Shown piece by piece: positions 2,917 through 13,988 of a DNA stretch of 22,612 nt. Numbering within the stretch: the first letter of the stretch is position 1; every line of letters starts with the position of its first letter. This DNA comes from a virus. Under the pieces are notes generated by a model. That model was not told where the DNA came from. It made no database searches and saw only the letters and a program-made list of their open reading frames with translations. The stretch is taken from positions 1 through 22,612 of IMG/VR virus record IMGVR_UViG_3300030406_000181; one strand, given 5' to 3'. The translations under genes were made by a program, and so were the position numbers.

Positions 2917-3163
2917 GTTTCATTAACATCTCCATTAAGCGATCAAGCTTGTTATTGATTTCTTTTACAGTAATTTCCAGTCCACTCATACGGTTCTCAA
3001 CAGCAGTGTCTCGTTCTTTCTGAGCAGCTAACTCCACCTCTATCTTAGTCATCCGTTTATCCCCGACATCCAATCGTTCTAACAACCTCTTGATAATCCA
3101 CCCGATAACTCCCAGTATTACAGCAAGAGCAGTATCTAAGAAGTGTGAAATAGATTCAGTCAT
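2909..3163 (-). CDS. small membrane/coiled-coil protein in the holin or spanin position
   Basis: This 84-residue protein has one hydrophobic segment (about residues 9-26, LDTALAVILGVIGWIIKRLL). A charged heptad-like helix follows to the C-terminus, including VENRMSGLEITVKEINNKLD. It sits between tail fibre and small terminase, where T7 places its class II holin (gp17.5) and Rz-type spanin (gp18.5). One N-terminal membrane span followed by a coiled coil is the layout of an inner-membrane spanin, though 84 residues is short for one. A holin is the alternative. It starts in a TGATG overlap with the tail-fibre stop, so translation is probably coupled. A lysis role is inferred from position and topology only. 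Confidence 0.7.
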   Translation of the reverse strand: MTESISHFLDTALAVILGVIGWIIKRLLERLDVGDKRMTKIEVELAAQKERDTAVENRMSGLEITVKEINNKLDRLMEMLMKRG

Positions 3164-5208
3164 CAGGTATCAGTTACTATTGTTTTAACAGTTCCGTCAG
3201 AGAACTTAATTTTTAAATCTCCATCAGCTGAGTCCACATAAATAGCAGCTTGTCCTGAGAAAGTGCTGGGAGCTGAAACTCCGTCTTTAAGAACTAACAA
3301 TTGTGAATGCACTTCCCCAGCTTCGATACCTGCTTCTCCCACATTATTAGTGCCAGCAGTTTTAAATTTAATATCACCGTTGGTAATAAGATCAGCATCT
3401 TCAGTTATTACTATCGACTTTTCAGCAGCTCCAGAGCCGGGGGTTGCGATGATTCTTAATACATCTGTATCCGCTGGCAATCCATAATTACCTGTAGAAC
3501 CTGTATCGTAAGAATCAATGACAAACCCGTCAGACTCTGTACCAGTTGGCGTAGTGATCCCTGCTTTATTTATGTTTATTTGACCGCCTTCTGTAGAGGA
3601 AGCTGGATCGTATATAACCAAAGAACTTCCCACCGCAGCGTTACTGGCAGTCAAAGCAAAGTTAGCATTAGTCGTAGTTCCTATACCAACAGCGTTGTTA
3701 GCACCGTCTGTTATTATTAAATTACCATTACCTGTACTCTTTACAATGAAGTCTACATCTCCTAAAGAATTGTTAATGATTACAGTCTTTTGTGTGGATG
3801 TATCGTCTACTAAAAATTGATTGTCTGTATCACTTATCTTAGCACTTGTAACAGCGTTGTCAGCTAGTTGATCTTCGCCAACACCTCCGTTATCAATGCT
3901 CAATGTACCACTACCTGTAATAGGTCCACCCGTCAGTCCTGTACCACTATTTACTGAAGTGACTGTACCTGTATTAGCTGTAGCACCTGTTGCAATACCG
4001 TCAAGCTTTGTCTTGTCAGAACTTGTCATTACTCCTGCCAAACTTGTAGTAGCAGCAGCAACGGTAGTATTAGTACCAGTGGACGATTCAATATCTACAG
4101 ATGAAGCAGCAGGAGTGTTACTTAAATTCGTAGCACCTGCACCAGCAGAACCGTTGGAAGCTGCCGTAATTCGTCCGTTCTCATCAACAGTTAAATCAGT
4201 ATTGGTATAAGAACCCGGAGTAACCGTAGTGTTATCCAACTTATCAGCAGTGATAGCATCATCCTCTATCTGAGTTGTGCCGAGCTGTACGCCCGGAGGA
4301 GGTGACCCTGTAGCTAAAGACGTGGTAATGGTTTCGTCTACGTAAGTTTTATTCGTTAGGTCATTTCCACTGGTGGGAGCTTGCGACTGAACAACTTTAC
4401 TAGGACTGGTCATGGTCAGGTTGCCCGACATACTGTCCCCACTCTTGGTTACCTGTAAATCGTCTTGGTCGTCAACATAACCCTTATTGGCTGCGTAGTC
4501 GTCAGCTACGGGAGTAGACAATCCCTGAACGCTGGCTGCACTGAGTATATCATTAGTACCCATATTAAGGTCACCACTCATGGAATCACCACTTGCATCA
4601 ACAAAAGTATTGTCGGTGTACGTCTTATTGGTCAGGTCATTACCTGTGGATGGAGTGGCAGAAGAGGTGACTTTATTGGAACCCATGTCCAGAGCACCCG
4701 TCATCGTATCCCCAGCTACATCAACGTAACGAGTGTCAGCGTATCCTTTGTTAACGGCATCGTCGTCACTGTCAGGATCCGCTAAGTTCTCAAGTTTCAA
4801 TCCATCAGCGTTGTAGTGGTCAGTGTCTCTTTTAGTTAACGCACCACCAGTAGCACCTTCCTCTGCTTCTTCAGCAAGATAACGGTTGTGATTGTATCCG
4901 TTGTCCAGTTCTGTCTCAGTTAGTACTGAACCATTTTCGAAGTCAACAATAGCTACAGTAGCATTGCTATCCCGTAATATCCTTATCTTAGCTAAGTTAG
5001 TAGGAGCAGTTACAAATCTTACAAAGTTAGTAGGGGATGTTTCAACAGTGTAGTCGTCTGTAAGTGTCTTTCGTACCCATCTGTTTGTACCACCTGCTGG
5101 TCCGTCGTTGACCTCTACCGCTACGTGTTCGGTATTAATGTATGGAAAGGAAAAGTTAAAATCTGTTTCCGAGCCGTCGCCCGTGTAGTCTACGTAGGTA
5201 TTAGCCAT
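3163..5208 (-). CDS. tail fibre protein (T7 gp17-like N-terminus)
   Basis: This 681-residue adhesin should form the trimeric side fibres that bind the host surface. Residues 1 to about 150 match the T7 gp17 anchor that docks on the tail (YTGDGSETDFNFSFPYI, LTETELDNGYNHNRYLAEEA). Residues about 150-295 hold repeats of the form GDxMxGxLxM plus NKxYVD, common in phage fibres. Next comes a low-complexity Gly/Thr/Ser shaft (TGTVTSVNSGTGLTGG, about 415-430). The C-terminal part ends in a short beta-rich DGDLKIKFSDGTVKTIV segment. I see no peptidase S74 chaperone. The start has no Shine-Dalgarno sequence but an AT-only leader. The C-terminal half decides host range and is the least family-like part. 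Confidence 0.92.
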   Translation of the reverse strand: MANTYVDYTGDGSETDFNFSFPYINTEHVAVEVNDGPAGGTNRWVRKTLTDDYTVETSPTNFVRFVTAPTNLAKIRILRDSNATVAIVDFENGSVLTETELDNGYNHNRYLAEEAEEGATGGALTKRDTDHYNADGLKLENLADPDSDDDAVNKGYADTRYVDVAGDTMTGALDMGSNKVTSSATPSTGNDLTNKTYTDNTFVDASGDSMSGDLNMGTNDILSAASVQGLSTPVADDYAANKGYVDDQDDLQVTKSGDSMSGNLTMTSPSKVVQSQAPTSGNDLTNKTYVDETITTSLATGSPPPGVQLGTTQIEDDAITADKLDNTTVTPGSYTNTDLTVDENGRITAASNGSAGAGATNLSNTPAASSVDIESSTGTNTTVAAATTSLAGVMTSSDKTKLDGIATGATANTGTVTSVNSGTGLTGGPITGSGTLSIDNGGVGEDQLADNAVTSAKISDTDNQFLVDDTSTQKTVIINNSLGDVDFIVKSTGNGNLIITDGANNAVGIGTTTNANFALTASNAAVGSSLVIYDPASSTEGGQININKAGITTPTGTESDGFVIDSYDTGSTGNYGLPADTDVLRIIATPGSGAAEKSIVITEDADLITNGDIKFKTAGTNNVGEAGIEAGEVHSQLLVLKDGVSAPSTFSGQAAIYVDSADGDLKIKFSDGTVKTIVTDT
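4333..4765 (-). repeat. tail fibre protein repeats (GDxMxGxLxM / NKxYVD units)
   Basis: Imperfect repeats of about 45 codons lie within the tail-fibre gene. Each pairs a GD[ST]M[ST]GxLxM block with an NK[GT]Y[AVT]D block. The GD blocks are AGDTMTGALDM, SGDSMSGDLNM and SGDSMSGNLTM. NK blocks read AVNKGYAD, LTNKTYTD, AANKGYVD and LTNKTYVD. The two LTNKTY units are also close at DNA level. This is a common shaft module of phage fibres, and recombination between units can change fibre length. Confidence 0.8.
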
Positions 5209-5252: not shown

Positions 5253-8200
5253 TCATTGTTGTAGTATTTCAAAAGGAGCAGCGGGCGGTACTTCAGGTGC
5301 TTTCACTGTTCCTCTTGTTTCTAAAATACTGTAAAGAGTATCTTCATCTTCGTTTATAAAACTAGCTAAAAATGCTTTATCTTCTAGTATATCTTTCTTA
5401 GTTTGATTATAAAATTGATTCAGCAAACTATTCAATGCAACTAAACCTTCGTTAGCGTACTTACCTGTCTCAGTAATTTGAAAGCCTTTGTTGTATTTCT
5501 TTATCCAGTCAGCGTTAGTAATTAAACTGTTTACTGCTTGATTAATATTCATTCGCTTACCTGCTAGCCCTTTAATGCCCTCTATCTTTTTAATTTTAAC
5601 TAACTGTCTTTTTAAGCGTTGGTCAAAGGAATAAGCTAAAGTCATGCCAGTATCGTCATCCACAAAATCAACCATCTTCAGACGATCTGCTATCATACTA
5701 GGTTTTCCAACGATGTTAGCGTGAGTATCACTTGCTACTATTTCTTCAAACCTAGTTCTGTCTAATTCCTTTCTAGGTGCTTGTCTTATAACAGTTTGCG
5801 TAACCCAAGTGTGTGTGCTTTCTAAATCTTCTCCAAGTAAATCTGTCTTCAAGTTAACAGCCCCTGCACCTAAAACAGAGTAAGCAATTCGCTCCCAATA
5901 TCCTTGCCCTCTTAAATCAGGAACTCCATCTTGTAATACTGTTTGTGTTATTTTACGAGCCTGAGCAGGAATAGGTACATAACTAGCGACAAGACGTGAC
6001 AAAGCATTACGTGTAACATCTCCTTCAAATTTAGCTATTTCTTGTGCTGTCTCAACACCTTGAGCTAGTGGCATCGCTTCTGCAAGCTTCTTAAAAGACT
6101 GACCTAAAACAAAATCTAACGTCTGATCTTTGGTGAGTATCGTCTGTCCTGTATCTCTTTCTTCTTTTTTTATTTTATGCCAAGACATCACATCAGCTGC
6201 CATTGCAAGGGGAAAAGACCAAGGTAAGGCAGCTGAGTAATCTGATCCCATTATATTGAAAGATTGTAATTTATTTTTCTGACGTTGATCTACAGTCATC
6301 CACTCAAGTGATCCCGTAGCCATACCATTAAAAGCAGCAGCACCTCCTATAGCATAAAGTGATGTGGATAGTAGTGCGTCTGTTAGTATGTCTTCGTTGT
6401 ATCTTAATCTACGTTCTTCCGCTTGGTTCTTCCTGCGTGTTAAGTCTTTTATCTCTTCGTTAATATCACGCTGCAACTTAGGATCATCTATCTTCCTTAG
6501 CCTGTTATATTGCTCTTTTAATTTTATATCTAACTCTTTTATTTTACCGCTGAATGGATTTGCGAACCTTCTAACTCCGGGCGTTACTGAACCAGCAGCC
6601 AATGCAGGAGATAATGAAAACCTTGCACCTCTGTATACCGCTCTAATAGGAACACCTACATAAGGAAGAAAAGCGTCAACCACAGCTGATAGCATACCGT
6701 TGTCGTTTGTTAGTTTTTTAATTCCTCTTATTATTTTTTCCGCACCGTTTATTGGTATGTCTTCTAAATCTCCATCAGCTGCGAACAATAACTCTTCTCG
6801 TATTTGATTAACAGTGTCTTCAAATTCGTGTGCGTCGTTCAGCACTGCTAACCCGTCGCTATCTCTCCAAGCTCCATCATACAATTCAAGTGCTCTTTTT
6901 TGTGCTTTAGCTGGATCATCAGGGAACTCTAATATAGCTTTCTTGTGTGCTTCTGCGTGTAGTCTTCCTTTAATTAACTGGCGTTTAAAAGCCGAATCAA
7001 GTGTCTGAATACCACGCACACCTAGCGTCCATAACTGCCAAAACTGACCGTTCTTTATAGCGTTAGTAAACCAGTTGGACGTATTCTCTAAAGCTTGTAC
7101 CCTTCTCTCTGCCGACTTGTAAGCTCTAGAAACTAAAGAATGTTCGCCTCTTTTTAATGATGCAGGATTTATTTCATCTGACATTCTACCAGCTCTGCTA
7201 TCTACAGCTGAAACATTCTCAGCAAATGTTCGACGCATCTCTGCCCACAATCCTTTAGTGTCGCTTAATATTTTAAAAGCACCCGCAGCGTCTGCCATCG
7301 CTAACCTTTTTCTAACAGGTAATGCAACGTTATGTGCGTTGTACATGAAATTAGTGAGTGGTCGATAGAATTGTTTCACTACTGCACCAACACCTGTAGG
7401 TAAACCAGCAAGCACTGACGGTAACTGATCAATCAACGACAACTGACGTGCCATCTTAACGTATCCCCAGCCTTTACTTAACCAACTAGCTGTGTCCTTT
7501 TCTAATGCTTTGTAAAAAGATTCTTCTAATTCTCTGAAAGCTTTAACGTTTAATCGTTCTTCTTCTATTTCTTTTCTAGCTTTATCTAAGTCACTAAGCT
7601 TTTGACGCATACGTTTTTTAGAATCAGCTATCTTCTTTCGCAATTCTTTTGATCTAGCAGGTTTAGTTGGTCCTTTAGGAGTAGGAGTTACTTCTTTTCT
7701 TAGCTCACCTACAACAGCCCGACCTTCTATGTCAGCTACTCTAGCAAGTTCTTGTTCAAGTTTTACAACAGCACGTGCCTCTACCTCTGCTTCTTTATAG
7801 TACTTTACTTTCTCTTCTAGCTCTTTTAGTCGTGGGTCTTTTTCCTTACTTGGTTTTAACCCTGCTGCTTTTTCTTGCTCATCTATTTTAGCAAAGCGTG
7901 AACGTAAACCGTCTAATTCTTTTTGTAGTTTATCACGTTTGTTTTCGTAGGCTTTACGTAATTGTTCTGCTTTAAATTCATCAGACATTTCAACTCTAGC
8001 ACGGTCAATCTCTTGTACTCTGTTACGCATATTCTTACGTAAGTCTGCTATGTCTTTAGTGAGTTCTTGCACACGACCCGGTGCTTTCTTTGGTCCTGTA
8101 GGTTTAGCCTCTACTTCTGCACGTTGTCTGCCTAATGGTCCTGTTTCTATCTCTAACAAACGAGCACGTTCAGCTTCCAATTCTTTGATGCGTCTTACTT

Positions 8201-10739
8201 CAGACTGTGCATCCTTGTAGAATTTAATCTTATCCTCTAAATCTTTTACTCGTGGGTCTTTTTCTTTTGGTGCAGTAGGTACAAGTTCTTCAGGTTCTTT
8301 ACCAAACGTAGCACGTAATTCGTCCAGTTCAGTTTGTAAAGTAGTAATCTTCTTTTGAAATGCTTGCTCTGCTTTCTCAGGTGAAAACTCTTCATCCATT
8401 TCACGTCTAGCTTTATCTATATCCGCTAGTCGTTGTTTGATGTTAGCTTTTACTTTAGAAATCTTCGATCTAAGTTCAGTAGCTTTTGTTGCTGGTTTGG
8501 TAGGTGCTTTAGGTTTAGGAGTTACAGCTGCTCGTTGTTCACCCAGCGGTGCTACATCTAACTCAGATACTTTAGCAAGCTCTGCCTCTAAACGTTTTAC
8601 TTCTATGAAATCTTTTTCAGATGCGTCGTAGAACTTAATCCTTTGTTTTAAGTCAGCAATCTCAGGGTCTTCTTGTAATTGTTTCTTTTGCTCCTTAGTT
8701 AATTTAGCTGGATCACCGAAACGTCCTTGCAATTCTTTTAAACGCTCTTGCAATTTCTTCTTACGTTTTAGTAAAGCTTTTTCAGCTTTCTCCGCAGCAC
8801 TTAAACGCTCTTGTGGTTTTCTCTTTTTTCTTTTCTTAGTAGGTTTCCGTGCTTTTAATACAGCCTTAACATCTACTTCTTCTTCTGGTACGGTAATGTC
8901 TACCTCTTCCTCTAAATCAAAATCCTCAAGGAACTCCTGTATATCTTCGTCTTCCTCAACCTTAGACTCTTTAAATATTTCCTGTATCTCGTCGTCTTCT
9001 TTTACTTCAGTAGGTGTAGGTTTACGACGTTTCTTCAGTTCTTCAGGTATAGCTAGATACTCGTCAAACATACCCTGTATATCAGCTTCATCTCCGTCTA
9101 TAACACCACGAGTCTTAGCCTCTAACGTAGCTTGTAGTCTTGCTAACGCTTCGTCTTGTAGTTGAGCACGTATACTGTACTTAGTAGCCCAAGCAAAATC
9201 TTCAGCATCACCACGTTGTGATTGAACTAAACGACCACCTGTAGTGTTTAACCAGTCAGTAACATTCCTATTAAAAGAACGACTAAACTTTATCTCACTT
9301 AACATAGCTTGTGCTACATTCTTATCGCTAGGATTTTTAACGAACGCACGAATCAAATCGTTCATACGTTGTATGTTCGCATCAGCTATCTTCTTACCCT
9401 CACGATTAATACGAGGTGCTTCTATAGACAGTGTACCACTTTCAGGTGTCGTGTCTATATTCTTAATACGCTCTATTAAATCATCCAACGTATCTTCCCT
9501 AGCATCATCTACGTTTCTTTCTCTTTTAGGAGCTTCAACTACAGGTACTTCCTTTTCTACTGCTGGTTCTCCTACTGTCTCTTCTTTAACAACAGTGGGT
9601 TCTTCTACTTCAGGCTCTTCGTCCCTTACAACAATAGGCTCAGATTCTTCCAGTTGTTTAGTAACATCTTCAACTTCTATATCTGGTTCTTCTTTTACGG
9701 TAGGCTCTACTTCTTGTTTAGATAGAACTTTGTTAGCCTCCATCATCTCAGCTATTGAATCATCCAGTATAGCTTGTGACTGCTCGATATCTTTGATCTG
9801 CTGTAAAGCTTGATGCTTGCTAGAACTTTTAGCTGCCGTTGCAGCTGCCCCTCCAAAACCAAACGCCACTTCAGGAGCTAAAGGTTCTTCGGCTTCTTTT
9901 ATTTGTTGTTGTAGTTCTATCTTCTTTGCTTCTAAATTTTCTTTAGCACTAGCTATAACATCAGTAGCTTTGTTCCTGCCCCATTTACCCGTCCTAGCCC
10001 ACACTGAGAATATCGTATTAAAACTACCACCAGCAGCAGAAGAGAACATATAATCATATACATTACGATCTGTACCGTTTAGGTGTGCTTCTACTTCTTG
10101 TCTTAATGCAGACTCGGCTAAACCTAAAGCAGCACCACTAACAAAAGTCTTAGCACCGTTAACATATAATTCTTTACCTTTCCAAGCTTTAGCGGAGGCT
10201 AGGCTAGGAGCACTCAATCTGAATACTTTATCAGCAGCTTTTGTTACTAAACCGATGCCGAACACCGTAGAAGCAATGCTTTCACCTGCTGAGTAGCTGT
10301 CTTGTATGCCGTATGCTTTACGTATTGATTGTCCTATAAAATTAGACGCAAGCCATATACCGCCTTCGGTTGCTGCTAACCCAATGACTCCCGCAACTGT
10401 AGAACTAGGTTCAGGCGTTACAATACCAAGGGTTGATAGTTTTTTAGCATTATTAGCCCAACGTAAATACTTTTGAGATTGGTGTAATTTATGAGTACCG
10501 TACAAACCTGTACCTAGTTCTCCTACAGTACTTACTGCTGTTCCTAATATATACTGACCAGTGCTTATCTCATCTTCAGCGATGGTTACACTCTCTAATA
10601 CTTCAGGTGGTAGATAGTCAGGGTTAGTGTCTACAGGAGGAGCTGGTTGTATATCTAACTCCGGGTTCTCTTGTATTCTAAACGTATCAAGATTACCTTC
10701 AGCTTTAGCTTTTCTAAGCTGTTCCGCAATAGTACTCAT
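5253..10739 (-). CDS. giant internal virion protein (T7 gp16-like ejection protein D)
   Basis: This 1828-residue protein takes the place of T7 gp16 (1318 aa), the core protein ejected with gp14 and gp15 to carry DNA across the envelope. The N-terminal part (about 60-260) has glycine-rich hydrophobic segments such as SSTVAGVIGLAATEGGIWLA. Next come acidic Glu/Pro/Val-rich linkers (about 345-410 and 570-630) and a Lys/Glu coiled-coil region (about 655-1070) built from three repeats. The C-terminal 700 residues mix helices with hydrophobic stretches (LLSTSLYAIGGAAAF, YSAALPWSFPLAMAADVMSW). I see no transglycosylase motif of the kind found at the T7 gp16 N-terminus. The gene starts in a TAATG overlap with the gp15-like gene. 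Identification rests on position, size and composition. Confidence 0.85.
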   Translation of the reverse strand: MSTIAEQLRKAKAEGNLDTFRIQENPELDIQPAPPVDTNPDYLPPEVLESVTIAEDEISTGQYILGTAVSTVGELGTGLYGTHKLHQSQKYLRWANNAKKLSTLGIVTPEPSSTVAGVIGLAATEGGIWLASNFIGQSIRKAYGIQDSYSAGESIASTVFGIGLVTKAADKVFRLSAPSLASAKAWKGKELYVNGAKTFVSGAALGLAESALRQEVEAHLNGTDRNVYDYMFSSAAGGSFNTIFSVWARTGKWGRNKATDVIASAKENLEAKKIELQQQIKEAEEPLAPEVAFGFGGAAATAAKSSSKHQALQQIKDIEQSQAILDDSIAEMMEANKVLSKQEVEPTVKEEPDIEVEDVTKQLEESEPIVVRDEEPEVEEPTVVKEETVGEPAVEKEVPVVEAPKRERNVDDAREDTLDDLIERIKNIDTTPESGTLSIEAPRINREGKKIADANIQRMNDLIRAFVKNPSDKNVAQAMLSEIKFSRSFNRNVTDWLNTTGGRLVQSQRGDAEDFAWATKYSIRAQLQDEALARLQATLEAKTRGVIDGDEADIQGMFDEYLAIPEELKKRRKPTPTEVKEDDEIQEIFKESKVEEDEDIQEFLEDFDLEEEVDITVPEEEVDVKAVLKARKPTKKRKKRKPQERLSAAEKAEKALLKRKKKLQERLKELQGRFGDPAKLTKEQKKQLQEDPEIADLKQRIKFYDASEKDFIEVKRLEAELAKVSELDVAPLGEQRAAVTPKPKAPTKPATKATELRSKISKVKANIKQRLADIDKARREMDEEFSPEKAEQAFQKKITTLQTELDELRATFGKEPEELVPTAPKEKDPRVKDLEDKIKFYKDAQSEVRRIKELEAERARLLEIETGPLGRQRAEVEAKPTGPKKAPGRVQELTKDIADLRKNMRNRVQEIDRARVEMSDEFKAEQLRKAYENKRDKLQKELDGLRSRFAKIDEQEKAAGLKPSKEKDPRLKELEEKVKYYKEAEVEARAVVKLEQELARVADIEGRAVVGELRKEVTPTPKGPTKPARSKELRKKIADSKKRMRQKLSDLDKARKEIEEERLNVKAFRELEESFYKALEKDTASWLSKGWGYVKMARQLSLIDQLPSVLAGLPTGVGAVVKQFYRPLTNFMYNAHNVALPVRKRLAMADAAGAFKILSDTKGLWAEMRRTFAENVSAVDSRAGRMSDEINPASLKRGEHSLVSRAYKSAERRVQALENTSNWFTNAIKNGQFWQLWTLGVRGIQTLDSAFKRQLIKGRLHAEAHKKAILEFPDDPAKAQKRALELYDGAWRDSDGLAVLNDAHEFEDTVNQIREELLFAADGDLEDIPINGAEKIIRGIKKLTNDNGMLSAVVDAFLPYVGVPIRAVYRGARFSLSPALAAGSVTPGVRRFANPFSGKIKELDIKLKEQYNRLRKIDDPKLQRDINEEIKDLTRRKNQAEERRLRYNEDILTDALLSTSLYAIGGAAAFNGMATGSLEWMTVDQRQKNKLQSFNIMGSDYSAALPWSFPLAMAADVMSWHKIKKEERDTGQTILTKDQTLDFVLGQSFKKLAEAMPLAQGVETAQEIAKFEGDVTRNALSRLVASYVPIPAQARKITQTVLQDGVPDLRGQGYWERIAYSVLGAGAVNLKTDLLGEDLESTHTWVTQTVIRQAPRKELDRTRFEEIVASDTHANIVGKPSMIADRLKMVDFVDDDTGMTLAYSFDQRLKRQLVKIKKIEGIKGLAGKRMNINQAVNSLITNADWIKKYNKGFQITETGKYANEGLVALNSLLNQFYNQTKKDILEDKAFLASFINEDEDTLYSILETRGTVKAPEVPPAAPFEILQQ
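7540..8757 (-). repeat. three-copy coiled-coil protein repeat of about 138 residues
   Basis: Within the giant internal protein, three units start at LQxxLxxLxxxF (near 8754, 8339 and 7928), giving spacings of about 415 and 411 bases. Each continues with DPxxxxLxxxIKFY (IKFYDAS, IKFYKDAQ, VKYYKEAE). A short Glu/Arg/Leu helix and a GxxRxEVxxxPxxPxKxP hinge follow. The unit closes with a basic helix reading LxDIDKARxEMxEEF or close variants. Copies differ enough at both protein and DNA level to be old duplications. Confidence 0.9.
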
Positions 10740-12937
10740 TAATAATTACTCTTCTGTGCGTTGTAAAAATTGTCTAACGACTCTGAGTTAAAAATACCTA
10801 GACCCTGATATGTTTCTTTTACTTTCTTTTCTTCTTCTGACAATGGTTGTCTTTCTAAATCTTTTTGCAAAACATCGTCAAACTCTAAATACATCCTGTT
10901 CAGCTCGCCTAAAGTTCCAAATAGCTGTACATCAGCAGCATCTAATCCTGCTTTCTGTAACATCTTATAACTTTCGGAATCAAACGTAGCATAACCGTAT
11001 CTACTTAAAGATATTTTAAGAGGCGTAACATCATTAGCACTCAACATCTTTTTTCGATCCGCTTCTATATCTCTTCTAAAAAACGGTATCTCTTTTCTTT
11101 TCTGTTCTAATAAAGACTCAGGAAACATAGTTTTATACTTTTCCTCTAACGCTTCTGCTTTTTCGCCTTTAAACACTGCTTCAACCGTGAGGGGCGTGTC
11201 CACATCGTAACTAATAGCAGAAGCTTTCGCCATTCCTTCGTATCGTCTTCTTTCGTCTTGTATTAATTTAGTCGTTAAATCCTCTAAAGCAGCATCTCTA
11301 ACATCTTCATCAGCCGCCTGTAATCTAAACGCTTCTTTCTCTACTTCGTTCTTTATGTAACTAACAGCTCCTGAATTATAGAAATAACTTCTATCGTCTA
11401 GTGTTATCTCGCTATCTTTTAATTGGTCGTCGATAGCACCTAAGTTAGCTAATAACTGGCTTGCTATATTTTTGTAGTATTCTTTTTTAAGAACATAGTT
11501 ACCAGCTGTTAATCTTTCAGATTCGTCTATTAACTCTTGGAATTTAGGAATACGACCACCCTCTCTAGATAAATACCCCTTCCAAGGTTCCTCTTCCTCT
11601 TTGTTATCTTTTACATACGCCCTAAAATCTTCAAGAACTTCAGGCATAGTTTCTTCAGTGATTGCTATAGGTGTTATTCCTATTGACTTTATTTCTTCAT
11701 AGTCCTGCGTGATACTAGGGAGTACTGGAAAATATAAAGCGGTTGCTAAGTCTCCCTCCGATCCTGCTACTTCTTCAAGTACACCTAAAAGGTTTTGTCC
11801 TATATCCCCAGTCCCTGCGAACACCTTATCTATGTATCCATTCACTCTTTCCTCTGGCATCTCAGGATTCATGCTTCTAAATATAGAACGTAACGTATTT
11901 AATTTAGAGGCTGGCATATCTTCACGATCACGTACGCCTGATGATAAAACTGAATAGATTCGTCCTTTTAAAACTTGTTTCTGTTCAGTGGTTGATTGAT
12001 TACTAACTTCAGCTAACTTAGTATTAACTTTCGATAGTAAAGGCGTAAGCTGTCTGACTGCTTCTTTTGTTCCGAATACTGGTTTCTTGTTAACACGTAT
12101 AGTACCCATAGAATCCAACAAACGTTTAGCATCGTTGTATCTTCTTTGTGCGTAGAGTTGATCGACATTAGCAGCAAACCCATCAATCATTAGTTTGTTT
12201 CTTTGTGTTTTATCGATGCCTGAATCAGCAAACAACTGCTCAAAATTATCAGCAACATCAGCTAGTATAGCTGTATCAAAGCCCTTATCACGTGTAACAT
12301 TAGAAAGAGTAAGTGTGAGCTCATCTTGTAAGCCCTGCTCAACTGCTTGTTGTTTCTTTTGCTCGTAAGCGATTGATAATTTATTCTTATACGGAGCTGT
12401 TACCGTATTCCATAAAGATTTAGCTGCAACAGAACTAGCTGCTACATTTCCTACTTCATTACTAAAATCAGTCCATTGCTGGTTAACGTATTCGTCAATA
12501 CCAGCGTCAAACTCTTCTCTAGTTTTGTACTTATCTAGATTCAATAAATCGTCTGAATCTGCCTGCATTTGAGGTATAACAGTATTATTGATAGCTCTTT
12601 TCAACAACACATCACGATAGGCTCTCTCTCTGTTATAAAGAGCTAGAGGATGAAAACCACTGATGTCTTTATCACTCAGTTTTTTAAGTTCAGCCTGAAC
12701 CTGCTGTTCTTCTAATGCTTCAGCCCTCTCAACACCTATCTTCTCTTGTACTTTCTGTAACTGACCGTACTGCTGTAACAACGGATTAACTTCACCCAAC
12801 GCATCAGCTAGGTCCATCAACTTGTTACGTCCTGCTCGTTGAACTTGTATCCCGTACTGTCCAGCCCGTTGAATGGTAGGTGATATACCGGGGACAGCCC
12901 CGCCTAATCCTTGTACTTGTACTCGTTCTCTAGCCAT
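10739..12937 (-). CDS. internal virion protein (T7 gp15-like ejection protein C)
   Basis: This 732-residue protein is almost the size of T7 gp15 (747 aa) and lies at the same place, between gp14- and gp16-like genes. In T7 this protein forms the tube through the periplasm during DNA ejection. The sequence is mostly charged alpha-helix without a signal peptide or membrane span. The N-terminus is Gly/Arg-rich (VQGLGGAVPGISPTIQRAGQ), as in many phage core proteins. No catalytic motif is visible. Both ends are TAATG overlaps, so its translation is probably coupled to both neighbours. No good Shine-Dalgarno sequence precedes it, which fits coupling. Identification is by order and size. Confidence 0.85.
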   Translation of the reverse strand: MARERVQVQGLGGAVPGISPTIQRAGQYGIQVQRAGRNKLMDLADALGEVNPLLQQYGQLQKVQEKIGVERAEALEEQQVQAELKKLSDKDISGFHPLALYNRERAYRDVLLKRAINNTVIPQMQADSDDLLNLDKYKTREEFDAGIDEYVNQQWTDFSNEVGNVAASSVAAKSLWNTVTAPYKNKLSIAYEQKKQQAVEQGLQDELTLTLSNVTRDKGFDTAILADVADNFEQLFADSGIDKTQRNKLMIDGFAANVDQLYAQRRYNDAKRLLDSMGTIRVNKKPVFGTKEAVRQLTPLLSKVNTKLAEVSNQSTTEQKQVLKGRIYSVLSSGVRDREDMPASKLNTLRSIFRSMNPEMPEERVNGYIDKVFAGTGDIGQNLLGVLEEVAGSEGDLATALYFPVLPSITQDYEEIKSIGITPIAITEETMPEVLEDFRAYVKDNKEEEEPWKGYLSREGGRIPKFQELIDESERLTAGNYVLKKEYYKNIASQLLANLGAIDDQLKDSEITLDDRSYFYNSGAVSYIKNEVEKEAFRLQAADEDVRDAALEDLTTKLIQDERRRYEGMAKASAISYDVDTPLTVEAVFKGEKAEALEEKYKTMFPESLLEQKRKEIPFFRRDIEADRKKMLSANDVTPLKISLSRYGYATFDSESYKMLQKAGLDAADVQLFGTLGELNRMYLEFDDVLQKDLERQPLSEEEKKVKETYQGLGIFNSESLDNFYNAQKSNY

Positions 12938-13545
12938 TACGCTGTTTGTGTTTGAGGTTTCTCAGGTAGTCTGCTTCCTATATCAAGACCTGTAGCGTAT
13001 CCGCTAAGACCACTACTCAATGCTTGTAGTCCCGCTGCTAAACCACTTGGTCTGCTGATAGGTTGTCTAATACCGATCTGACGTTGTTGCGTAGCGAATC
13101 CTGCTTGTTCAAGACCCATGCCTGTTGCTACTTGTCCTAACTCTTGTTGTCTTAAAAGTGCTTCTCTGTACGCTCCCTCTTGTCGTGTGTAGTCATCCAT
13201 CAATGCTTGTACACTAGCTCCTGCAACACCTGCTTCTCCAGCAGACACTCTAGCTCTAGCTAATGCTTCCTGTGACTTACGACTAACTTGTTGCAACTCA
13301 CGACCCACAGCTTCCTGCTCTTCTGCTTGACGCATACGGATGGAAGTTTGTTCTTGTAGAAAACGCTGACGCTCCGCTGCTGCTGCTTGTGCTTGGAAAC
13401 GTGCTTGCTGTTTAGCTTGCTGACGTTGTCCTGCATAAGCTACAAGAGGTTGAGCAAACCCACTCACTACAGACGCTCCTATGAGTGTTTGCATACCTGC
13501 ACCTGCTGCCGGTGCTAACGCTGCTCCTATTGCTGGAAAACACAT
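12937..13545 (-). CDS. internal virion protein (T7 gp14-like ejection protein B)
   Basis: This 202-residue protein compares with T7 gp14 (196 aa), which forms the pore in the outer membrane during ejection. I place the start at the ATG at 13545. The frame is open further upstream to 13596, but AGAGGAAG lies eight bases before this ATG, and the resulting N-terminus MCFPAIGAAL resembles MCWMAAIPIA of T7 gp14. A hydrophobic Ala/Gly-rich N-terminus (about 1-40) is followed by a Gln/Ala/Arg-rich helix (about 40-150). The C-terminus is Gly/Ser-rich (GLAAGLQALSSGLSGYATGL). The gene starts five bases after the gp13-like stop and ends in a TAATG overlap with the gp15-like gene. Confidence 0.87.
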   Translation of the reverse strand: MCFPAIGAALAPAAGAGMQTLIGASVVSGFAQPLVAYAGQRQQAKQQARFQAQAAAAERQRFLQEQTSIRMRQAEEQEAVGRELQQVSRKSQEALARARVSAGEAGVAGASVQALMDDYTRQEGAYREALLRQQELGQVATGMGLEQAGFATQQRQIGIRQPISRPSGLAAGLQALSSGLSGYATGLDIGSRLPEKPQTQTA

Positions 13546-13550
13546 ATCGT

Positions 13551-13988
13551 TTACTTCCTCTCTAATATAAATGACATATACCCGTCGTACTGGCAATCGC
13601 TAAACTCTGCACCCAACCACTGCAACCACCTGTAGCTCAACGTATTAGTCTTCATTACCACGTTTGTTAGAAAGTCAAAACCCATCATCAATTCATCTAC
13701 CCACTGCTTGGAATGTTTTAGAAAGTACTTCTTAGCAGTAGCCAGTCGTCGTGTTCCTAACAACCACACAACACCAACATTCTCCTGTGGACTAACACCA
13801 AAACTACAATACAATCCGTCGTTACCTCTGAGTGAATATACTTTACTACTTGTTTGAAATGACAGGTTAACAGCGTCCTTTGGGTGGTGCATTAATCCGA
13901 TACACTCCATCATATCCTCTTCCCGTAAGTCGTCGTACAACTCAAAGGCATCCATATCAGGTTGTGCTTCTTCTACTCTAAGACCCAT
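13551..13988 (-). CDS. gp13-like protein with GNAT-type C-terminus
   Basis: This 145-residue protein is close to T7 gp13 (138 aa) in size and lies in its place between nozzle and gp14. It helps build the particle in T7 but is not a main part of the mature virion. The segment TNTLSYRWLQWLGAEF resembles the final helix and strand of GNAT acetyltransferase folds. The acetyl-CoA loop is not clear, so enzymatic activity should not be assumed. The ATG at 13988 is preferred over one at 14021. AGGAG lies eight bases before 13988, giving MGLRVEEAQPDMDAF, while the upstream ATG has only a weak GAG. The start overlaps the nozzle stop by 11 bases. Confidence 0.78.
   Translation of the reverse strand: MGLRVEEAQPDMDAFELYDDLREEDMMECIGLMHHPKDAVNLSFQTSSKVYSLRGNDGLYCSFGVSPQENVGVVWLLGTRRLATAKKYFLKHSKQWVDELMMGFDFLTNVVMKTNTLSYRWLQWLGAEFSDCQYDGYMSFILERK

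Follow-up and report, generated by a model that had tools for sequence, protein, structure and literature searches.

The stretch of DNA analyzed here, a 22.6-kb virus record (22,612 nucleotides, hereafter the window), shows a T7-like order of late genes on the minus strand: major capsid protein, adaptor, nozzle, gp14-like protein, gp15-like protein, a protein of 1828 aa and a T7-type tail fibre, with the large terminase at the other end of the window (Table 1). The 1828-aa ORF, which is the subject of this analysis, follows the gp14-like and gp15-like genes and precedes the tail fibre; the gp15-like gene is named by position only, and its product matched nothing in Pfam, PHROG or, by tblastn, INPHARED. 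The gp14-like ORF was called from a TTG codon, and its PHROG match begins at residue 31, suggesting that translation may begin at a more internal codon. Named relatives of the nozzle protein cover only ~60% of its length, in three pieces, which points to large lineage-specific insertions in the window protein; the nozzle genes of CRP-125 and RHEph01 encode about 780-795 aa, compared with 1218 aa here.

Table 1. Features of the window discussed in the text (positions are those of the window)
Feature	Positions	Strand	Basis
gp16-like ejection (internal virion) protein, 1828 aa, no Cys	5253..10739	-	ORF; synteny; C-domain homology to marine gp16
N-terminal part, residues 1-260, Gly/Ala-rich, hydrophobic stretch 113-131	9960..10739	-	
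Middle part, residues 261-645, acidic (net -34), variable; slot holding enzyme-like cargo in some relatives	8805..9959	-	
Repeat unit U1, residues 646-781	8397..8804	-	self-alignment
Repeat unit U2, residues 782-918	7986..8396	-	self-alignment
Repeat unit U3, residues 919-1058	7566..7985	-	orthologue of the C-domain-adjacent unit, the sole one kept in single-unit relatives
U1-U2 block, apparently exchanged, residues about 600-925	7965..8942	-	identity steps, trees
C-terminal gp16-type domain, residues 1086-1828	5256..7484	-	
gp15-like protein, tunnel protein position, 732 aa, no Cys	10739..12937	-	position only
gp14-like internal virion protein	12937..13596	-	phrog_805, 9.4e-17
T7-type tail fibre	3163..5208	-	PF03906 N-terminal domain
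Nozzle protein, 1218 aa	13978..17634	-	PF25675

The C-terminal domain links this protein to the gp16 proteins of marine podoviruses. A profile-profile comparison of our own 54-row C-domain alignment with 13 rows of marine gp16 (P-SSP7 gp16, S-CBP3, S-RIP1, S-CBP42, SS120-1, HTVC041P, HTVC011P, HTVC200P, HTVC048P, CRP-125, CRP-171, CRP-114 and CRP-804), performed using hhalign, aligned 552 columns with a probability of 99.2% and an E-value, for a single target, of 2.6e-19; the reversed-alignment control gave a probability of 0.2%. When the AlphaFold2 (AF2) model of residues 640-1828 was compared with BFVD using Foldseek, 15 targets were retrieved at E <= 0.001, including the internal virion proteins of Synechococcus phages S-CBP3 (2.9e-7) and S-RIP1 (2.0e-6) as well as several polyvalent-type proteins. 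Neither the complete protein nor its C-terminal part matched a convincing Pfam or PHROG family, and comparison of the C-domain with single sequences yielded no significant match, T7 gp16 included (single-target E-values of 0.05 and 0.12, with probabilities of about 1% and 0.5%); the marine gp16 proteins as a family likewise lack a match to T7 gp16. The N-terminal part produced no profile match to the N-terminal parts of named gp16 proteins. No Pfam family above cut-off was found in the window protein, and in particular no N-terminal lytic transglycosylase, a domain of the T7 type that is described as absent from P22-like phages (PMC8954989). On the combined evidence of synteny and C-domain homology, the 1828-aa protein is a divergent gp16-type ejection protein of a T7-like, probably marine phage, and it is probably injected into the host.

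The likeness to marine gp16, or internal virion protein D (phrog_6651), comprises the gene position, the C-terminal domain, the absence of cysteine (in six of the seven named marine proteins) and the lack of a transglycosylase, none being found in the four marine proteins scanned with Pfam. The marine set consisted of S-CBP3, S-RIP1 and CRP-125 (phrog_6651), along with P-SSP7, HTVC011P and others identified by tblastn. In contrast to the window protein, all seven named marine proteins lack a 138-aa repeat, and their N-terminal parts cannot be aligned with it. A shorter, near-tandem duplication of 49 residues was observed at residues 10-100 of CRP-804 gp34, a Roseobacter phage gp16 (L113 in our set; self-diagonal score 76). 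T7 gp16 resembles the window protein in gene order, large size and lack of cysteine, and differs from it in possessing the transglycosylase domain and, as the original prediction held, in having no comparable repeat.

Cysteine is missing from 39 of the 40 family ORFs longer than 1400 aa, the remaining one containing a single residue, and the gp15-like and gp16-like proteins of the window amount together to 2560 aa with zero cysteine. Many other large ORFs in the same genomes encode several cysteines; tail fibres and some structural proteins have none. The absence of cysteine fits an ejected protein and is possibly a general trait of such proteins. One record designated complete (L095, AP013544.1) carries cysteine-free ORFs of 788 and 745 aa at its opposite ends and, judging from the ORF list, the linearisation point may have split its gp16-type gene.

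Self-alignment of the 1828-aa protein confirmed the predicted array of three tandem units of about 138 residues, with individual lengths of 136, 137 and 140 aa for U1, U2 and U3, respectively, pairwise identities of 37-40%, and the motifs in the order originally described. The best ungapped self-diagonals lie at offsets of 137 (score 268), 140 (192) and 277 (150), and the gapped local scores between units (268, 227 and 222) compare with maxima of 71-79 in 1000 shuffles. The span proposed originally, 7540-8757, was about right (residues 661-1067, or 7539-8759 in frame), and the array is better bounded at 7566-8804, that is, residues 646-1058. The phase of the units was fixed by placing each start just after EM|(S/D)(D/E)EF because it is here that units have been lost or swapped in relatives.

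A profile built from the unit detects clear units in IMG/VR relatives, and the same C-domain is present in all 125 fetched ORFs with a unit match, a redundant set in which many contigs were fetched repeatedly and which came in part from two scans that used the repeat or the unit itself as the query. Across 108 units, the IKFY/VKYY core is indeed the best-kept part (Y 95%, F/Y 100%), and other well-kept columns are leucines of helices A and B (97-100%) and an isoleucine of helix C (91%). The supposed drift of the hinges did not hold up for the Pro/Lys hinge, which is conserved (weighted columns: P 90%, P 78%, K 69% and P 67%); the drift is instead in the A-B loop, which connects the first helix to the second. 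Within units, dN/dS was about 0.06-0.11, similar to the flanks, in four close pairs (window-L003, L005-L028, L006-L018 and L009-L014), and thus, the units are under purifying selection.

The repeat appears to be undescribed within the sources searched. It was described by no match in Pfam, PHROG, PDB or INPHARED: Pfam searches of the repeat region at E up to 10 produced only sub-cut-off matches to unrelated families; sequence comparison with solved structures gave unrelated best hits at E 0.04-0.5, and a PDB profile search gave a best E of 0.04; and tblastn searches of the named phages in INPHARED with the repeat, the C-terminal part, the N-terminal part and the gp15-like protein retrieved nothing. 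Among GTDB genome contigs, 47 pattern matches included no relative, and accordingly neither a prophage nor a host was found. None of the phages seen to bear the repeat is a named isolate; by capsid and terminase, the closest named relatives include phages of Roseobacter and Rhizobium, so that alphaproteobacteria of marine or estuarine waters may be the hosts. No such repeat was encountered in the open-licence literature, judged by titles and the starts of abstracts. With a repeat-specific profile in hand and no known coiled-coil family assigned to the region, it is highly improbable that the units are generic coiled-coil filler which expands by recombination and has little function. Filler would account for rapid change in unit number of the kind described below for L005 and L028, but it is at odds with the low dN/dS, with the conserved Y, L, I and P columns, and with the failure of any Pfam family to exceed its cut-off.

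Unit number could be determined in related phages and varies from none to four. From 63 non-redundant ORFs with a unit or the C-domain, 43 were complete (both ends within the contig, over 1200 aa), and the 20 truncated ones were left uncounted; the criterion for a unit was a match to 91 or more of the 139 profile positions with a domain E-value <= 0.01. On these terms, no unit was present in 2 complete relatives, one in 13, two in 10, three in 17 and four in 1, with degenerate first units in L014, L062 and L065. The two complete relatives with zero detectable units (L086 and L091) indicate that the repeat is dispensable in the wider family; given the limited sensitivity of the profile, they may hold diverged units that it missed.

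The last unit of the array adjoins the C-domain. In the unit tree, in which not all forks are resolved, units of different species cluster by position, which implies that the duplications are old, and single units are found mostly near U3 or at the base; exceptions in one tree are the single units of L066, L074 and L076, which lie beside the U1/U2 group, and the most diverged units are uncertain in position. Given this clustering and the placement of the single units, U3 most likely represents the founding position, and U1 and U2 would stem from old duplications N-terminal to it. Proteins with three units are present in two C-domain clades that are distant from each other.

Unit number does not follow the length of the putative tunnel protein, an explanation that we considered and dropped: gp15-like proteins are 723-806 aa long in relatives with three units and 759-828 aa in those with one, and this overlap speaks against simple co-scaling with the tunnel. 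The same overlap bears on the proposal that the units are a protein-binding tape for the gp15-like tunnel or core subunits. T7 provides a precedent, in that residues 157-228 of gp16, described as a "molecular tape", cement gp15 (PMC8954989), and the charged and aromatic columns of the unit are strongly conserved. A tape is nevertheless unlikely, considering that unit number is unrelated to gp15 length and that the repeat is located directly before the C-domain rather than after an N-terminal transglycosylase.

Comparison of relatives indicates that the U1-U2 block has been exchanged between lineages at least twice, as judged from identity steps and conflicting trees, with the breakpoint at the U2/U3 border. 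The window and L005 share 84-98% nucleotide identity across residues about 600-925, and mostly 33-72% in the flanks. L007, in turn, has U1-U2 in common with L023, and U3 and the C-domain in common with the window. In both cases, the 3' identity step falls at residues 911-927, at the U2/U3 border (residue 919). Approximately unbiased (AU) tests rejected the grouping of L005 with L009, L011 and L014 on the U1+U2 data (p-AU 0.0003) and, on the C-domain data, the groupings of L005 with the window group (p-AU 0.0002) and of L007 with L023 and L025 (p-AU 3e-67); these p-values are not strict because the groups were named after the trees had been seen, and the nucleotide identity steps are the independent support. 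Comparisons between clades often show the repeat as the most similar part of the protein. Stronger constraint on the repeat than on its flanks was rejected as the cause, since within clades the dN of the repeat is similar to or above that of the flanks; together with the conflicting trees, this makes exchange the better explanation. We also dropped the notion that exchange is peculiar to the repeat, given that other parts of these genomes are mosaic too.

Units are lost in register as well: in L031, the deletion joins the U1/U2 border to the U2/U3 border. L005, with three units, and L028, with two, are about 97-98% identical over flanks of 4.1 kb and 3.2 kb (7.3 kb), and L028 lacks an in-frame piece holding U1 relative to L005. 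This pair is near-identical in gp15/gp16, the downstream tail-fibre region diverges at once, and the fibre genes differ. Conceivably, unit number is a length dial, fitting how far the ejection protein reaches to how wide the host envelope is or how it is built, and is traded along with the tail fibre. The discrete copy number, 0-4, and the joint difference of L005 and L028 in unit number and adjacent fibre genes would suit such a dial, which is quite improbable all the same: the association concerns one pair only, unit number is unrelated to gp15 length, and three units are found in both of the distant C-domain clades. A broader version, in which phages trade whole units in register, at times along with a different tail fibre, as an exchangeable length module that tunes the envelope reach of the hub or cargo, is distinctly doubtful as well. 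The L005/L028 pair neither proves nor excludes envelope matching.

The original prediction that the units form a rod is supported in part. AF2 modeling of the repeat alone (40-row alignment; pLDDT 70.6, pTM 0.28) predicted helices A, B, a short B' and C recurring in each unit; the three main helices per unit are of fair confidence, with low-confidence breaks between them, and their packing is undefined. The longer model of residues 640-1828 reached a pLDDT of 63.6 and a pTM of 0.40, and with neither model did Foldseek retrieve anything from PDB at E <= 0.001. The repeat is helical and probably elongated on these models; a low pTM is also expected from a shallow alignment and does not by itself show an extended stalk.

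We lean, with somewhat better than even confidence, towards the repeat being a modular, flexible helical stalk that joins the N-terminal or cargo part to the gp16-type hub. Each unit would comprise three helices: A, of about 25-39 aa, followed by a variable loop; B, of about 38 aa, which would start at DP and carry IKFY; and, beyond a Pro/Lys break, C, of about 30 aa. Helix C is predicted to run nearly unbroken into helix A of the next unit; in the model, helix C of U2 and helix A of U3 are one residue apart. The last unit would be fixed to the gp16-type C-domain, with the others added on the N-terminal side, lost or exchanged in register. Being helical and free of cysteine, the proposed stalk could thread through the narrow tail and fold again in the periplasm. 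After ejection, it would separate the N-terminal membrane or cargo part from the C-terminal hub and determine how far each extends across the inner membrane or alongside it.

T7 gp16 is thought to span the periplasm and the inner membrane, with its C-terminal part forming a cytoplasmic hub (PMC8954989). The topology of T7 gp16 cannot be transferred to the window protein, given that there is no direct match between the two and that the N-terminal part is unmatched to named gp16 proteins. The repeat is situated between the N-terminal part and the gp16-type C-domain, and a second hydrophobic stretch, residues 1103-1121, lies near the beginning of the latter. Depending on whether 113-131 or 1103-1121 crosses first, the repeat would be periplasmic or cytoplasmic, and it may span or match the envelope.

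It is also possible that the repeat works inside the capsid, packed around the internal core or DNA, and has no envelope role, which we regard as unlikely. U1 and U3 are Lys-rich, with net charges of +12 and +11 in the window, which counts in favor of such packing; against it, U2 is about neutral (-1) there and ranges from -3 to +5 among three-unit relatives. Helical insertions are known in gp16 equivalents, and a possible parallel is the helical hoop inserted in the tetrameric ejection protein (TEP) of PhiM1 (PMC11440229). That protein, gp48, is like the window protein an ejection protein with a helical insertion, in its case in the hub, and differs, by comparison of descriptions only, in that the insertion is presented as a hoop plus an endolysin-like domain, with no tandem repeat described in that account (PMC11440229).

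For the stalk, TolA of Escherichia coli, which is placed across the periplasm, offers an analogy. TolA contains an in-frame repeat tract the copy number of which varies and alters function (PMC3477136); it is an unrelated cellular protein, and the likeness concerns the behavior of the repeat.

The middle part, on the N-terminal side of the repeat, carries enzyme-like segments in some relatives. The 1933-aa protein of L062 (L062:4395-7463) contains in this part a methyltransferase match that passes its cut-off (E 1.3e-4) and an ART-PolyVal match that does not (E 0.0013), and the 2430-aa protein of L153 (L153:1345-5394) contains a weak methyltransferase match there; a metallopeptidase-like HETIH motif was spotted by eye in L153. 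Based on these matches, the segments of L062 and L153 are candidate injected enzymes. An ART domain suggested by eye in L086 was not confirmed by Pfam, and the best blastp match to L062 had an E-value of 0.28. The enzyme-like middle segments recall the polyvalent proteins, which combine several disparate, mostly enzymatic domains within a single injected chain (Iyer et al. 2017; PMC5512222); the window protein differs in that Pfam recognised no enzyme domain in it.

Gp16-type ejection proteins differ widely in size and build, and in the family described here the length differences reside partly in a discrete, countable module that looks like an exchangeable spacer. The relatives connect gp16-type proteins with polyvalent, cargo-bearing injected proteins. 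The idea that the module matches the envelope is an attractive one, and natural forms with one, two, three and four units exist on a common scaffold, including one pair about 97-98% identical around the repeat, which would make the role of ejection-protein length in DNA delivery directly testable, host by host.
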